Below are positions 2,813-40,933 of a stretch of 64,000 nt of DNA, piece by piece. Source of the stretch: Algibacter marinivivus (GTDB lineage Bacteria > Bacteroidota > Bacteroidia > Flavobacteriales > Flavobacteriaceae); contig NZ_QFRI01000001.1 of the NCBI RefSeq assembly GCF_003143755.1, positions 372,001-436,000 on the forward strand, written 5' to 3'. The position numbers and the translations under genes were made by a program. The notes below the pieces were generated by a model that saw only the letters and a program-made list of their open reading frames with translations, was not told the DNA's origin and ran no database searches. Within the stretch, counting starts at the first letter, position 1; the number at the start of each line of letters is the position of its first letter.

Positions 2813-3436
2813 ATGAAGATTGTTATCCATCCTACATACTTTCCAAATATTGCTCACTTTATAGCTCTGGCAAAAGCTGATGAAGTGGTTTTTGAAATGG
2901 ATGATAATTTTTTAAAACAAACCTACCGAAATCGCACTTATATTTATGGTGCCAATGGTAAATTAGGTTTAAATATACCCGTAATACATTCACAGAAAAA
3001 TCGTCAGAAATATAGAGACGTTAAAATTTTTAATCAAGATAACTGGCAAAGTCTTCATTGGAAATCATTGCTTTCTGCTTATAGAACATCGCCTTTTTTT
3101 GAGTATTACGAAGATGAGATTCAACATTTATTTATTGATAAAGCAGACTTTCTTTTAGATTTTAATTTAAAATGCTTTGAGGTTATTTGCGATTGTCTTC
3201 AATTAGAAATTAATGCTTCAAAAACAGAATCTTATCAAAGAGATTTTAACGATAAAACCGATTTTAGGCATTTGGTAAATGCTAAAAAGGAAACACCTAA
3301 TCAATTAGAATCCTATACACAGGTCTTTACAAATAAACACGGGTTTATTCCTAATTTAAGTATTTTAGATTTACTCTTTAACGAAGGCCCTAATGCACTT
3401 AACTATTTAGAATCTCAAACTATAATATCTCAGTAA
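2813..3436 (+). CDS. WbqC-like family protein
   Basis: Protein of the WbqC-like family, whose members are often found near glycan or envelope genes and have no settled biochemical role. The N-terminus MKIVIHPTYFPNIAHFIALAKA and the following segment YRNRTYIYGANGKLGLNIPVI are typical. There is no signal peptide, so it is cytoplasmic. It starts 3 bases after the peptidase stop and its stop overlaps the start of the next gene by one base, so translation is probably coupled. Confidence 0.8.
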   Translation: MKIVIHPTYFPNIAHFIALAKADEVVFEMDDNFLKQTYRNRTYIYGANGKLGLNIPVIHSQKNRQKYRDVKIFNQDNWQSLHWKSLLSAYRTSPFFEYYEDEIQHLFIDKADFLLDFNLKCFEVICDCLQLEINASKTESYQRDFNDKTDFRHLVNAKKETPNQLESYTQVFTNKHGFIPNLSILDLLFNEGPNALNYLESQTIISQ

Positions 3437-35773: not shown

Positions 35774-35781
35774 TATATTTG
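35774..35781 (+). promoter_or_regulatory. candidate -7 promoter element of the Asn-leader/gatCAB-aspS operon
   Basis: TATATTTG matches TAnnTTTG exactly. Transcription would start a few bases downstream, leaving only about ten bases before the leader ATG at 35799. A -33 element is weak. Confidence 0.5.
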
Positions 35782-35798
35782 AACACGTTAAAATAGCA

Positions 35799-35846
35799 AT
35801 GACAAACAATAACAATAATAATAATTTCAATAATCCTAATTTTTAG
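35799..35846 (+). CDS. asparagine-rich leader peptide (attenuation sensor)
   Basis: Fifteen-codon reading frame MTNNNNNNNFNNPNF with ten Asn codons (two AAC, eight AAT), seven of them consecutive, and a TAG stop at 35844-35846. The stop lies four bases before the first arm of the downstream antiterminator. Genes below it make Asn-tRNA(Asn), so the peptide most likely serves as a ribosome-stalling sensor of charged tRNA(Asn). The reading frame, codon run and hairpins are seen directly; the function is inferred from classical amino-acid operon attenuators. Confidence 0.85.
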   Translation: MTNNNNNNNFNNPNF

Positions 35847-35849
35847 GGT

Positions 35850-35888
35850 TCGGAAGGTTATTGTTTAAAAATATATAAAGCCTTCCGA
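35850..35888 (+). promoter_or_regulatory. antiterminator of the Asn attenuator
   Basis: Arm 1 TCGGAAGG (35850-35857) is an exact complement of CCTTCCGA (35881-35888), which is also the left arm of the terminator; the two pairings exclude each other. A ribosome on the leader stop codon would cover arm 1, while one stalled on the Asn run would leave it free. Confidence 0.8.
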
Positions 35889-35907
35889 TATCGGAAGGCT
35901 TTTTTTT
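35877..35907 (+). terminator. Rho-independent terminator (attenuator) before gatC
   Basis: Perfect palindrome with arms GCCTTCCG and CGGAAGGC around ATAT, extended by A-T pairs on both sides and followed by eight T (35900-35907). It lies between the leader and the first structural gene, where a normal operon would have no terminator. Confidence 0.9.
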
Positions 35908-35925
35908 AATCTAAATTTTAGAAAC

Positions 35926-36192
35926 ATGAGTAAAATTATGACAGTCGACGTGTTGTCGAGCATTAAAGGAGCACAGCCATCAGAAGCTGTAAACAAGTTA
36001 TTTGAGGTCATTAAAAATGCCAACACAACAAATAATAATGCTTTTAATAATCATAATAATGCGTTGTCTTTAAACGATTTAAGAGAGGATTTGGTTGTAG
36101 ATAGCTCAGAAATAGAAAAGCAAATCATCATCGAAAACTTCCCAAAAGAAAAAAACGGCTATTTAGTTGTTTCTAAAGTTATAGAAGAATAA
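35926..36192 (+). CDS. gatC: minimal GatC: amidotransferase subunit C with an Asn-rich segment
   Basis: 88-residue protein. Its C-terminal third (LREDLV at 52-57, then NFPKEKNGYLVVSKVIEE) matches the conserved tail of GatC (LREDxV...DGYFxVPKVIE), which wraps around GatA. The usual N-terminal helical part is poorly conserved. Residues 31-45 contain nine Asn, almost all AAT codons. GatC stabilises the GatA-GatB complex. It is first in the operon, 2 bases before gatA, and sits directly after the attenuator. The family call rests on the tail and on context. Confidence 0.75.
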   Translation: MSKIMTVDVLSSIKGAQPSEAVNKLFEVIKNANTTNNNAFNNHNNALSLNDLREDLVVDSSEIEKQIIIENFPKEKNGYLVVSKVIEE

Positions 36193-36194
36193 TT

Positions 36195-37595
36195 ATGAGT
36201 TCGCAGATACATCACATTCATCAGCAATTGATGAACAAAGAAATCACTTGCACTTCACTGGTTCAAGAGAAATTAGATGGCTTAAAACAAAACACTAACA
36301 ACACCGTAAACACCTTGTTGGACACTATGGCGCTAGATTTAGCAGCCAAAGTAGATGCTAAAATAGCCAACGGAGAAACTATTGGTTTACTTGAAGGTAT
36401 TCCTTTTGGAATTAAAGATGTGTACATGCTACAAGGCACATATACTACAGCAAGTTCAGATTTACTTAAAAACTATAAATCGGCATACACCGCAACAGCT
36501 ATTCAAAAATTATTGGATGCTGGTGCTATTCCATTAGTAAAAGAAAACTGCGATAGTTTTGGTCATGGATCTTCTTCCGAAAACACCATTTTTGGCGCTG
36601 TTAAAAACGCCATAAACCCCGATTTAGTTGGTGGCGGTTCTAGTGGAGGTTCTGCGGTTAACGTTGCTAAAGATTATACGGTGTTTTCCATTGGGGGTGA
36701 TACAGGAGGTTCTGTACGTCAGCCTGCTGGCTACAATAATGTATATGGTTTAAAACCTACTTACGGACGTATTTCGCGTTACGGATTAATGGCTTACGCA
36801 TCATCAACAGATTGTGTGGGTCCCATTGCAAAATCAATCGAAGATATTCGCATTGTATTGAATGTGATGAGCGGAAAAGATATTAAAGACCAGACGTCTT
36901 ACGCTTGCGCGGAAATATCTCAAGAAGCTATTTCATCTTCTGAGACTATAAAAACCGTTGGATATTTTAAGAACTTTATTGAAACCGATGCGATTGACAC
37001 AAAAATCAAATCTGATTTTTTAGAAACAATAGAAAAAATAAAAGCCAAAGGCATTCAAGTAAAAGCTTTAGATTTCTTTGAATCTGAAACATTAGTATCA
37101 ACATACTATACGCTGGCCATGGCAGAAACCGCCTCTAACCTATCAAGATTAGATGGTACAAACTATGGTAACCGTATTGAATCGGATAATTTAAAAGAAA
37201 CTTACGCAGTAACACGTTCTGAGAATTTCTCTGAAGAGACAAAACGCAGAATTGTTGGTGGAAACCAAGTGTTATCTCAAGGATTTTCAGATGAAATCTA
37301 CTTAAAAGGATTAGCTTTAAGAGACAATATTTCTGAAAATTTTGAAAACGATTTTAACGAAGTCGATATCATCATATCGCCTGTTACTCCAAGTACACCA
37401 CCAAAAATTGGAGATAGTTTAAAAAATCCGCACGCCATGTATTTATCTGATGCGTATACGGTTGGTTTTAGTTTAGGACAACTACCTACACTAACAATTC
37501 CTCAAGGGACTACAACAGGTTTACAAATTACGGCTGCAAAACATAATGACGAACTCGTTTTGAAGTTTGCTAACTTCTTAAAAGATACGATATAA
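36195..37595 (+). CDS. gatA: Asp-tRNA(Asn)/Glu-tRNA(Gln) amidotransferase subunit A
   Basis: Amidase that releases ammonia from glutamine or asparagine for tRNA-dependent amidation. The Ser-cis-Ser-Lys triad is visible: Lys in GIPFGIKDVYML, Ser in VGGGSSGGSAVNVA and Ser in IGGDTGGSVRQPAG. The end SLGQLPTLTIPQG is typical. The length is 466, within the normal range. Its stop overlaps the ATG of gatB-aspS by one base (TAATG). The neighbouring AspRS domain suggests that the physiological product is Asn-tRNA(Asn) rather than Gln-tRNA(Gln). Confidence 0.95.
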   Translation: MSSQIHHIHQQLMNKEITCTSLVQEKLDGLKQNTNNTVNTLLDTMALDLAAKVDAKIANGETIGLLEGIPFGIKDVYMLQGTYTTASSDLLKNYKSAYTATAIQKLLDAGAIPLVKENCDSFGHGSSSENTIFGAVKNAINPDLVGGGSSGGSAVNVAKDYTVFSIGGDTGGSVRQPAGYNNVYGLKPTYGRISRYGLMAYASSTDCVGPIAKSIEDIRIVLNVMSGKDIKDQTSYACAEISQEAISSSETIKTVGYFKNFIETDAIDTKIKSDFLETIEKIKAKGIQVKALDFFESETLVSTYYTLAMAETASNLSRLDGTNYGNRIESDNLKETYAVTRSENFSEETKRRIVGGNQVLSQGFSDEIYLKGLALRDNISENFENDFNEVDIIISPVTPSTPPKIGDSLKNPHAMYLSDAYTVGFSLGQLPTLTIPQGTTTGLQITAAKHNDELVLKFANFLKDTI

Positions 37596-40500
37596 TGGAA
37601 CTAGAACAATTAAACGACCTGCTTAAAAAACACGAATTAGAGTTAGTAATCGGTCTGGAAACACACGTTCGATTAAATACAAAAACCAAATTATTTTGCT
37701 CTTGTGCAAATCAAGAAATAGAAAAGCCTAATCAAAATATCTGTTCGGTTTGTACAGGACAAATGGGGGTTTTACCAGCTATAAATAAAGAAGCAATTAC
37801 TAAGGCTATTTATTTTGGAAAAGCAGTAAAATCTACTTTTGAAAACGAAGTGATTTCTTGGGACAGAAAGCATTATGAGTATCCGGATAATCCAAAAAAT
37901 ATTCAGATTACGCAGTTTCACAACCCTGTGATTCCTGATGGTTCAGTATCTTGCTTCCGAAATGATGGATCGCAGTTTACTGTAAACTTAACGCAAGTTC
38001 ATATTGAAGAAGATGCGGCTAAATTGATGCACGAAAAGAAGGTATCGTTAGTTGATTTTAACAAAGCTGGCGTACCACTTATTGAGATTGTTACCGAACC
38101 TTGTATCCGTCATATCGAAGATGCTTCAACCTATGCGCAATACATTCAGCGTATTGTTCAGAATCTTGGAATCTCTGAAGCTAACCTTGAAAAAGGCGAG
38201 TTTAAATCGGATGTTTCGGTGTCACTTCGTAAAAAACACGATTATAATTTAAATCCACGTACCGAAATAAAAAACTTAAACTCCTTCAAGTTTATGGTGG
38301 AGGCTTTAAAAGAAGAAGTTGAAAAACAACTCAACTATTTCTTAGAAAACAAGGCATTTAGACCAGACCAAACTACAGTGTTATGGGATGCTGAATTGAA
38401 GCAAACCAAAACCATGCGTAAAAAGGAATTTGAAGCAGATTACCGTTTTATTTCTGAGCCCGATTTACCTTTTGTAAGCATAAAAGAAGTGGTTGAATCT
38501 ATTGATGTCGATTTAAGCACACTACCATTTGCAGTAGAACGCATCCTTATTAAAGGTGGTGTTTTACCTCAAGATGCTAAGTTTTTTACAGCTGATTCAT
38601 TACGTTCTGAAACGTTTGTAGCGATTAACAACGTTATTAAAGACCCTTCATTTGTTGCCAAAACATTAGTGAATAATATTGATGCTGAAGCTTATGGTGA
38701 TATTCATAGAATCGAACATTTAATCGAAATTTTTCAATTATTTAAAGATGAAAAAATCACTTCGGTTTTAGTTCAAAATGCAATAACATCTTATTTAAAA
38801 GATAGAGAATTCAACTATAACCAGTATTTTGAAGATAATACCATTTCAGAATCTCAAATAGAAGATGCTATTGCAAAGGTTATTTCAAACAATGGAGCTA
38901 TTGCAAACGATATCCGTTCTGGAAACCAAGGAAAAGCAGGTATTCTAGTTGGAAAAGTGATTGGTATTATTGGTAAAGGTGCTTCTGGAAAAGTAATCCG
39001 TGAAGGCATTTTGAAAGCGCTGGCTGGGAATAATAACGAAAGACAGAAGACAGAAGACGGAAGTACAACTCAACAACAAACGCCTCAACAACAAACAACA
39101 AAAAAGGAAGAAGAAGTACTCCCTGAAATTCCAATTATCATCAAAGATGAATACAGAACCCATGTTATTTCTGATATTTCAGATGAGAGCATTAACGAAA
39201 AAGTAACACTTTCTGGATGGGTATCTAGTGTGCGTGACCATGGTGAGTTAATCTTTATCGATTTACGTGATTCAAGTACGCAAGTATTTCAAGTGCGTTT
39301 GAGTAGAGAATCGTTTGCGAATTTAGATGAATTAGTAAAATTAAAACCTGAAACTGTTATTACCGTTTCTGGAACGATTCTGCAACGTAAAGAAGATGAT
39401 TATAACGCTGCATTAAGAACTGGTAAGATTGAACTAGAAGCCAAAGATTTAGAAATCCTAAACCTTTCTAAAACATTACCTTTTGAAATAAAACGCGCGA
39501 CTAAAACGAACGAAAATGTACGTTTTCAATATAAATATTTAGACCATAGAAATAATGATGTACGCAGAGTAATTGTTAACCGCCACAAGGTTATCAAAAT
39601 GATGCGTGATATTTTAGACGAGCAAGATTTCCTAGAAATTGAAACGCCTATTTTAAGTGCAGGAACTGATGAAGGCGCACGTGAGTTTATTGTACCAACA
39701 CGAAAACAAGCAGGTTCGTTTTATACCTTACCACAGGCACCTCAGCAATTCAAGCAAATGTTGATGGTTTCTGGTTACGAGAAGTATTTCCAAATTGCAC
39801 GTTGTTTTAGAGATGAAGATTCTCGTGGCGATCGTCAACCAGAATTTACACAGTTAGATATTGAAATGGCGTATGCCAGCATGCAACAAATCATTGATTT
39901 GAACACAAACATGTTCAATGGTATTGTTGAGAAAATATATGGCAAAAAATGGATCTTACGTCCGTTTGAGGTGTTAACCTATAAACAAGCCATGGACGAT
40001 TATGGCTGTGATAGACCAGATTTGCGTTTCGGTTTAAAACTGCAAGACATTACCAACATTGTAAAAGACACTACCTTTCAAGTATTTAGTAAACCTATTG
40101 ACGAAGGCGGTATTGTAAAGTGTATTAAAGTTTCTGCAGAAGAACAGGGCAACAAGCGTTTATCTAAAGGACAAATTGAAAAATTAACCGCATTGGCGCA
40201 AAGTCATGGTTTAGGAGGTTTAGCATACATCATCGTAAACGAAAACGATTTGCAATCGCCAATTATTAAATTTTTAGGCGAAGATATTGCTACTGGAATT
40301 ATAAAAACAACAGATGCTAAAGTGGGTGATATTGTATTCTTTTCTGCTGCAGATTATGCAACTGCTAATAAAGCTTTAGATGCAGTGCGACAAGAATTAG
40401 GTAACATGCTACGTTTAATCAATCCTAAGGAATTAAGACCTGCTTGGGTAATTGATTTTCCGATGTTTGAAAAAACAGATGAAGGCCGTTGGACGTTTAC

Positions 40501-40933
40501 CCACAACCCATTCTCAATGCCTGCTATTTATGATATTGACAAACACATGCATGGTAAAGAAGATGAAATTGGAAGCATCATTGCGCAACAATACGATCTT
40601 ATCTTAAACGGTTACGAAATTGGTGGTGGTTCTGTGCGTGCCCACAAACCAGAAATCTTAGAAGCTACATACAAAAACATGGGCTACAATAAGGACGAGA
40701 TGATGAAGAGTGTGGGCACTATGTATAAAGCCTTTCATTATGGTGCACCACCACACGGTGGTATTGCCTGGGGTGTAGATAGATTGATGATGATTTTAGA
40801 GAAAAAAGCATCCATTAGAGAAGTAATGGCTTTTCCAAAAACAGGAACTAGTGAAGATTTACTTTTTGGAGCGCCTTCTCAGTTATCTGATAAAAAGGTT
40901 GAGGAAATGAATGTGAAGGTGATTAGAAAATAG
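37595..40933 (+). CDS. gatB-aspS: fused amidotransferase subunit B - aspartyl-tRNA synthetase
   Basis: 1112-residue fusion. GatB part (about 10-475): VIGLETHVRLNTKTKLFCSC, CSVCTGQMG, DRKHYEYPDNPK, RKKEFEADYRF and a C-terminal YqeY-like tail. A low-complexity linker (about 476-512, Gln/Thr/Glu-rich) follows. The AspRS part (about 520-1112) has the OB fold SGWVSSVRDHGELIFIDLRD, class II motif 2 IARCFRDEDSRGDRQPEFTQLD, a GAD-type insertion, and motif 3 GGIAWGVDRLMM. AspRS would charge Asp on tRNA(Asn) and GatCAB amidate it, an obligate transamidosome. His in RDHG is the residue reported for non-discriminating Pseudomonas AspRS. Confidence 0.93.
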   Translation: MELEQLNDLLKKHELELVIGLETHVRLNTKTKLFCSCANQEIEKPNQNICSVCTGQMGVLPAINKEAITKAIYFGKAVKSTFENEVISWDRKHYEYPDNPKNIQITQFHNPVIPDGSVSCFRNDGSQFTVNLTQVHIEEDAAKLMHEKKVSLVDFNKAGVPLIEIVTEPCIRHIEDASTYAQYIQRIVQNLGISEANLEKGEFKSDVSVSLRKKHDYNLNPRTEIKNLNSFKFMVEALKEEVEKQLNYFLENKAFRPDQTTVLWDAELKQTKTMRKKEFEADYRFISEPDLPFVSIKEVVESIDVDLSTLPFAVERILIKGGVLPQDAKFFTADSLRSETFVAINNVIKDPSFVAKTLVNNIDAEAYGDIHRIEHLIEIFQLFKDEKITSVLVQNAITSYLKDREFNYNQYFEDNTISESQIEDAIAKVISNNGAIANDIRSGNQGKAGILVGKVIGIIGKGASGKVIREGILKALAGNNNERQKTEDGSTTQQQTPQQQTTKKEEEVLPEIPIIIKDEYRTHVISDISDESINEKVTLSGWVSSVRDHGELIFIDLRDSSTQVFQVRLSRESFANLDELVKLKPETVITVSGTILQRKEDDYNAALRTGKIELEAKDLEILNLSKTLPFEIKRATKTNENVRFQYKYLDHRNNDVRRVIVNRHKVIKMMRDILDEQDFLEIETPILSAGTDEGAREFIVPTRKQAGSFYTLPQAPQQFKQMLMVSGYEKYFQIARCFRDEDSRGDRQPEFTQLDIEMAYASMQQIIDLNTNMFNGIVEKIYGKKWILRPFEVLTYKQAMDDYGCDRPDLRFGLKLQDITNIVKDTTFQVFSKPIDEGGIVKCIKVSAEEQGNKRLSKGQIEKLTALAQSHGLGGLAYIIVNENDLQSPIIKFLGEDIATGIIKTTDAKVGDIVFFSAADYATANKALDAVRQELGNMLRLINPKELRPAWVIDFPMFEKTDEGRWTFTHNPFSMPAIYDIDKHMHGKEDEIGSIIAQQYDLILNGYEIGGGSVRAHKPEILEATYKNMGYNKDEMMKSVGTMYKAFHYGAPPHGGIAWGVDRLMMILEKKASIREVMAFPKTGTSEDLLFGAPSQLSDKKVEEMNVKVIRK

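Follow-up and report, generated by a model that had tools for sequence, protein, structure and literature searches.

The window analyzed here, i.e., the whole stretch of 64,000 nucleotides of Algibacter marinivivus DNA, carries on its forward strand a short asparagine-rich reading frame that precedes an intrinsic terminator and the genes of a tRNA-dependent amidotransferase. The motif TATATTTG, a putative -7 promoter element of the TAnnTTTG type that we take to be the Bacteroidota promoter motif, lies at positions 35774–35781. It is followed by a leader ORF at 35799–35846 (ATG at 35799, TAG at 35844–35846) that encodes the peptide MTNNNNNNNFNNPNF, in which Asn accounts for 10 of the 15 codons (3–9, 11, 12, and 14), seven of them consecutive, as the first-pass annotation of this DNA had described and a re-check of the sequence bore out. 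Between the leader ORF and gatC sits the intrinsic terminator (35877–35907), made of a stem at 35877–35902 that includes arm 3 (TCGGAAGG, 35891–35898) and of eight T at 35900–35907.

The operon itself comprises gatC (35926–36192, 88 aa), gatA (36195–37595, 466 aa) and a gatB::aspS fusion (37595–40933, 1112 aa), the latter being kept in all 80 relatives as a single match of at least 1000 residues. These genes were first read as a tRNA-dependent Asn operon. The GatB part of the fusion scored 398 bits with NF004012 (cut-off 338) and its AspRS part 714 bits with NF001750 (cut-off 443), but GatA (432 bits with TIGR00132, cut-off 481) and GatC (24.9 bits with TIGR00135, cut-off 47.1) remained below the thresholds, and the identity of gatC is deduced from this weak score together with the gene order. 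The same genome encodes AsnRS, a free AspRS, LysRS, GluRS, and GlnRS, each above its NCBIfam cut-off. Since AsnRS and GlnRS are thus available, the role first ascribed to the operon holds as a route to Asn-tRNA and has to be amended to that of a second route, which is probably inducible. Of the 80 relatives, 74 have the motif RDHG, whose His presumably marks a non-discriminating AspRS, in their fused enzyme (6 not parsed), and the free AspRS of A. marinivivus harbors RDKG; the fused enzyme would accordingly be of the non-discriminating kind. No AsnA was found in this genome, and two proteins, encoded about 18 kb apart with one of them adjoining a glycosyltransferase-like gene, scored above the TIGR01536 asparagine synthase cut-off and below that of NF006949 for asparagine synthase B, so transamidation may not be the sole source of Asn. 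A tRNA(Asn) pattern matched nothing, which bears on the pattern only, and ARAGORN reported a single tRNA-Cys in 55 loci.

Residues 31–46 or so of GatC form an Asn-rich loop (NANTTNNNAFNNHNN), which holds 6–12 Asn in the 60 of 80 relatives that were parsed, whether the leader is present or absent. Such a composition is odd, because GatC should relieve Asn shortage, and the loop could possibly act as a second Asn-dependent check.

Conservation of the leader before gatC

The poly-asparagine leader stands out from its sequence background. When the 617-base intergenic region was simulated 20,000 times with a first-order model, seven consecutive AAY codons never arose, and an ATG frame of 10–25 codons with at least seven Asn appeared in only nine cases; the leader is the sole frame of this kind on both strands of the window. 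Runs of at least five AAY occur at nine places genome-wide (12 overlapping matches), the leader's run of seven being the longest. A second poly-Asn leader was sought in the same genome and the candidate was rejected, because this six-codon run (L186) is antisense to a transporter-like gene and lacks a terminator.

A conservation check proposed in the first-pass annotation was carried out on the best 80 of 234 close GatA relatives, 79 of which were testable, the remaining locus offering only 66 nt upstream (L025). The Asn-rich leader and its hairpins are kept before gatC in 38 of these 79 loci (37 recognized by a motif rule and L080 by a covariance model), and the presence of leader and arms at this place is not due to chance. 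The device is missing from the other 41 testable loci, which have the same operon; they include every Flavobacterium and every Lutibacter row of the tree, and the nearest relatives of the window are Algibacter. The distribution of the leader on this tree needs 11 changes of state, nine of them forced by well-supported branches. In leaderless loci such as L062, a TAnnTTTG-like element seems, by eye, to lie shortly 5' of gatC, as if a direct promoter had replaced the attenuator.

A link between the leader and a lack of AsnRS was also considered and ruled out, as synthetase counts are alike with and without the leader. Indeed, 36 of 37 leader-bearing genomes present four class IIb synthetase matches, sized like the AspRS, GatB::AspRS, LysRS, and AsnRS of A. 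marinivivus, and the 37th (2.0 Mb) presents two; among the matches listed, exactly four were counted in 38 of 40 further genomes (39 leaderless ones and that of L080).

Wider surveys with the covariance model yielded 42 matches at E ≤ 0.01 in 397 sampled genomes of the family, including 37 strong ones (E < 1e-11) with that of A. marinivivus itself, and seven matches in 395 sampled genomes of the order, every one in the same family. The next gene after the leader is gatC in all 37 strong loci and in two from the order sample (32 of these 39 verified by motif and 7 by tblastn), and seven weak matches correspond to other attenuators. Two loci (L103 and L133, with leaders MINNNNNNFNNPNF and MRLNNNNNNFNNPMK) fall outside the motif rule; both their arm 1 and arm 3 are G-richer than GGAAGG and keep G-U pairing with CCTTCC, a joint shift that may be a small sign that these arms change together.

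The 39 tabulated leaders are 14–16 codons long with 7–10 Asn codons, and one starts with GTG. All 39 are preceded, 10–19 nt 5' of the start codon, by TAnnTTTG, in the form TATATTTG in 30 cases and TATCTTTG in nine. Position -10 is always Asn, encoded by AAT in 13 leaders and AAC in 26, and position -8 is Asn in 35 and Arg in four; the last codon specifies 13 different residues. An FNNP motif is conserved with F and P each present in 38 of 39 leaders. From this pattern of conservation, we infer that the frame is translated. The alignment of the 38 gatC leaders shows almost no variation in the Asn run, in AATTTCAATAATCCTA, TAGG and GGAAGGTT or in the arms, while the spacers drift; the stop codon is followed by a long, nearly constant stretch, GGTTATTGTTTAAAAATATATA.

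Competing RNA structures

Arm 1 (TCGGAAGG, 35850–35857), the 5' arm of the antiterminator with a nearly fixed GGAAGGTT, may pair with arm 2 (CCTTCCGA, 35881–35888), or arm 2, which is common to antiterminator and terminator, may pair with arm 3. The positions assigned by the first-pass annotation to arms 1 and 2 and to the terminator with its eight T were correct, and its view that the 1-2 and 2-3 pairings exclude each other agrees with a complementarity of the competing arm beyond that of shuffles. A terminator scan returned the stem 35877–35902 (11 pairs, six of them GC) on both strands, compared to a mean of 0.4 in 1-kb shuffles, and the leader RNA (35786–35912) reached a folding z-score of -4.97.

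In each of the 38 gatC leaders, arms 1 and 2 can form an uninterrupted helix of 8–10 bp (shuffle p ≤ 0.013). A competing arm scoring at least 18 was found for all 32 gatC attenuators passing the stem filter vs. one of 151 other nearby terminators, a control group that still includes the attenuator of L080; at a score of at least 16, this number rose to seven of the 151 in the 80 loci. The pair inside CCTTCC/GGAAGG is A-T in 15, G-C in 10, G-T or T-G in three and unpaired in 10 of the 38 leaders. Compensatory changes are absent from the gatC set: apart from one U-G, the 37 distinct rows all share the same arms 1 and 2, which leaves no covariation to count in these loci.

The stop codon lies three bases from arm 1, instead of the four initially counted. 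When a ribosome was masked at the stop codon, arm 2 was unpaired in 12 of 12 folded leaders, and when it was masked near the first Asn codon, the helix between arms 1 and 2 formed in all 12, the footprint size being assumed in both cases and the mask of L055 having been placed too far upstream. With the assumed footprint, these masked folds and the three-base spacing suit attenuation, and the classical geometry recognized in the first-pass annotation agrees with both as well as with the competitor tests. The full-length fold contains the terminator in 12 of 12 leaders; antitermination must therefore be kinetic.

A further set of pairings is predicted before arm 2 exists, in which the Asn codons pair with GUUAUUGUU, UUUC pairs with arm 1, and CCUA pairs with UAGG around the stop codon. 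In the window, a possible protector would have its 5' strand, AAACAATAAC, within the Asn codons (35804–35813) and its 3' strand in the mostly invariant segment GUUAUUGUUU (35857–35866); in this protector fold, UUUC at 35825–35828 pairs with 35853–35856 of arm 1 (99.3% of cells paired), and a small hairpin AAUCCUAA/UUAGGGUU surrounds the stop codon (35832–35850), according to the predicted fold and the aligned rows. The CCUA/UAGG core of this hairpin pairs in all 37 distinct rows, one of them with U-G, and the best leader helix reaches 10–11 bp in 37 of 38 leaders in differing registers, as a raw length with no null model. By pairing with the bases after arm 1, the Asn codons may hold arm 1 until the ribosome arrives, and the predicted protector corresponds in position to the 1:2 helix known from classical attenuators. 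However, covariation for the protector, i.e., pairing above that of shuffles, was not found in the aligned gatC leaders. In ribosome-free folds of RNA ending with arm 2, the antiterminator was best in 9 of 12 leaders and the protector in three (-15.8 vs. -13.9 kcal/mol in the window), and ribosome-free RNA might thus read through, because the antiterminator outcompetes the protector in those nine folds.

Leaders before asnA and other operons

Asn-rich leaders with terminators were also observed 5' of asnA, in 14 of 45 loci from four families. The family and order surveys contributed 10 of 30 loci, six of them in tandem (L163 and L164 having too little upstream DNA), and the class sample 4 of 15, in three other families and with one tandem. 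Half of the leader-bearing asnA loci, i.e., seven (L145–L148, L151, L152, and L174), thus harbor tandem leader/terminator units; the second leaders of these tandems often end in SPPPGGE-, KSPPG- or PPGGD-like sequences. The gene of L136 scored 388 bits with the asnA model (cut-off 293). A competing arm was detected with p ≤ 0.05 in 12 of the 20 units tested (out of 21), the other eight being without one by this simple test. Nine of the 12 arms are unlike GGAAGG yet match their own terminator, and three are GGAAGG. The covarying arms evoked in the first-pass annotation are therefore lacking within the gatC set, whereas the asnA leaders, with their arms of other sequence, do provide this covariation.

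None of 30 asnA-bearing genomes of the family had GatB, which was found in three of 19 others in which neither asnA nor a leader match was present, and in both asnA genomes of another family (f64); no statistic was drawn from such low numbers of related genomes.

Other codons are found in other leaders of the same family. Ile/Val-rich leaders lie 5' of ilvD in four loci (L120, L121, L122, and L124), with an arm architecture similar to that of the gatC leaders, and a Thr/Ile leader with a terminator lies directly 5' of thrA in L123, which encodes a bifunctional aspartokinase/homoserine dehydrogenase (1009 bits, cut-off 726). In L124, a second frame, MKNYISIIIVIIVIISSP, is present 3' of the first terminator. 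In L120, a SAM-II riboswitch (3147–3224, 47.8 bits, gathering score 44) is divergent from the ilvD leader and lies upstream of metK (510 bits, cut-off 309).

A probable attenuator for asparaginyl-tRNA supply and its relation to known systems

Most probably, we are dealing with a ribosome-mediated transcription attenuator whose signal is charged tRNA(Asn). RNA synthesis would begin just 5' of the leader ORF. When Asn-tRNA is ample, the ribosome would proceed to the stop codon and cover arm 1; arms 2 and 3 would then pair, and transcription would end at the T run. Under a shortage of Asn-tRNA, a ribosome stalled at any of the seven leading Asn codons would leave arm 1 free to pair with arm 2, thereby blocking the terminator and allowing transcription of gatC-gatA-gatB::aspS. 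The fused AspRS would then load Asp onto tRNA(Asn) and GatCAB would amidate it to Asn-tRNA(Asn), the very molecule that is sensed. As judged from the sequences compared, this device very probably lets the bacteria switch on their second Asn-tRNA route when asparagine is short.

Attenuation might also be real and be tuned to the general speed of translation, the Asn codons being A-rich filler, since AAY triplets arise easily in AT-rich intergenic DNA. This is improbable, as Asn is kept while the third bases vary, the genome contains no longer Asn-codon run, the ilvD and thrA leaders use other codons and the asnA leaders are likewise Asn-rich. The constancy of F and P, each in 38 of 39 leaders, could instead suggest that a nascent FNNP peptide acts within the exit tunnel to stall the ribosome, in response to a signal different from charged tRNA(Asn). 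However, the bases of TTC and CCT have predicted partners in arm 1 and around the stop codon, which can explain their constancy, and FNNP is absent from the asnA leader peptides listed. Moreover, a peptide of 15 residues seems short for exit-tunnel arrest, and we give this arrest even less credit than an effect of translation speed. The long near-constant stretch GGTTATTGTTTAAAAATATATA after the stop codon might be expected of an RNA with a protein or a tRNA as its direct ligand, in a T-box-like manner and with an untranslated ORF, but the reading frame is conserved, the window contains no Rfam family at gathering score, and no T-box is among the Rfam matches of the region at E ≤ 1, making direct binding the least credible of these proposals.

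Beyond this locus, we lean slightly towards a broader reading of charged-tRNA(Asn) attenuation, in which Asn-codon attenuators would constitute an Asn regulon devoid of regulator protein in several families of the class, located before the gene of whichever enzyme supplies Asn, asnA or gatCAB::aspS, AsnRS serving when Asn is present and transamidation when it is not. In the gatCAB case, the loop would close with no free asparagine as intermediate, Asn-tRNA(Asn) being the direct product of this operon. Both routes to Asn-tRNA(Asn) seem common in bacteria and the reason for keeping the indirect one is unsettled (PMC4206432). A switch that appears to read the charging of tRNA(Asn) offers a testable answer, the indirect route being a supply when asparagine is short. 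If this is true, leader-peptide attenuation responds to asparagine as well as to the amino acids already known, and does so at two dissimilar enzyme targets.

Ribosome-mediated attenuation is an already known class of control. No recognizable report of an Asn attenuator for gatCAB, aspS, or asnA was found in open-licence PMC text, and one comparative study, which reportedly treats the attenuation of amino-acid and aminoacyl-tRNA operons, may mention it. The Rfam models Phe_leader (RF01859, 35.7 bits) and Thr_leader (RF00506, 25.0 bits) both scored below their gathering threshold of 55 in this region, which is thus not a member of either family. In Escherichia coli pheST, synthetase genes are under Phe-codon attenuation; the likeness lies in a charging machinery placed under a leader rich in cognate codons, whereas the present operon encodes the indirect route by transamidation and coexists with a gene for AsnRS, the direct one.

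The theory of the trp, his, thr, ilv, and pheA type of ribosome-mediated attenuators has been treated previously (PMC1183508). These attenuators similarly present a leader ORF with codons for the product, competing arms and an intrinsic terminator before the operon, but here the amino acid is Asn, made on its tRNA, and the product of the enzymes is the sensed molecule. Closer at hand, work on Flavobacterium psychrophilum describes leader-peptide attenuation 5' of amino-acid operons, and structured 5' regions also at aminoacyl-tRNA synthetases, which places attenuators of the same control class as the Asn leader in the same bacterial family; words starting with asparagine or Asn are absent from the main text of that source, and its supplement lists 64 elements (PMC9723704). 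Deinococcus radiodurans and Thermus thermophilus possess AsnRS, GlnRS, GatCAB, and a second AspRS, and make Asn on tRNA(Asn) (PMC4206432). The genome of A. marinivivus has the same set, but the second AspRS, which is of archaeal type in Deinococcus and Thermus, is here of bacterial type, fused to GatB and preceded by an attenuator.
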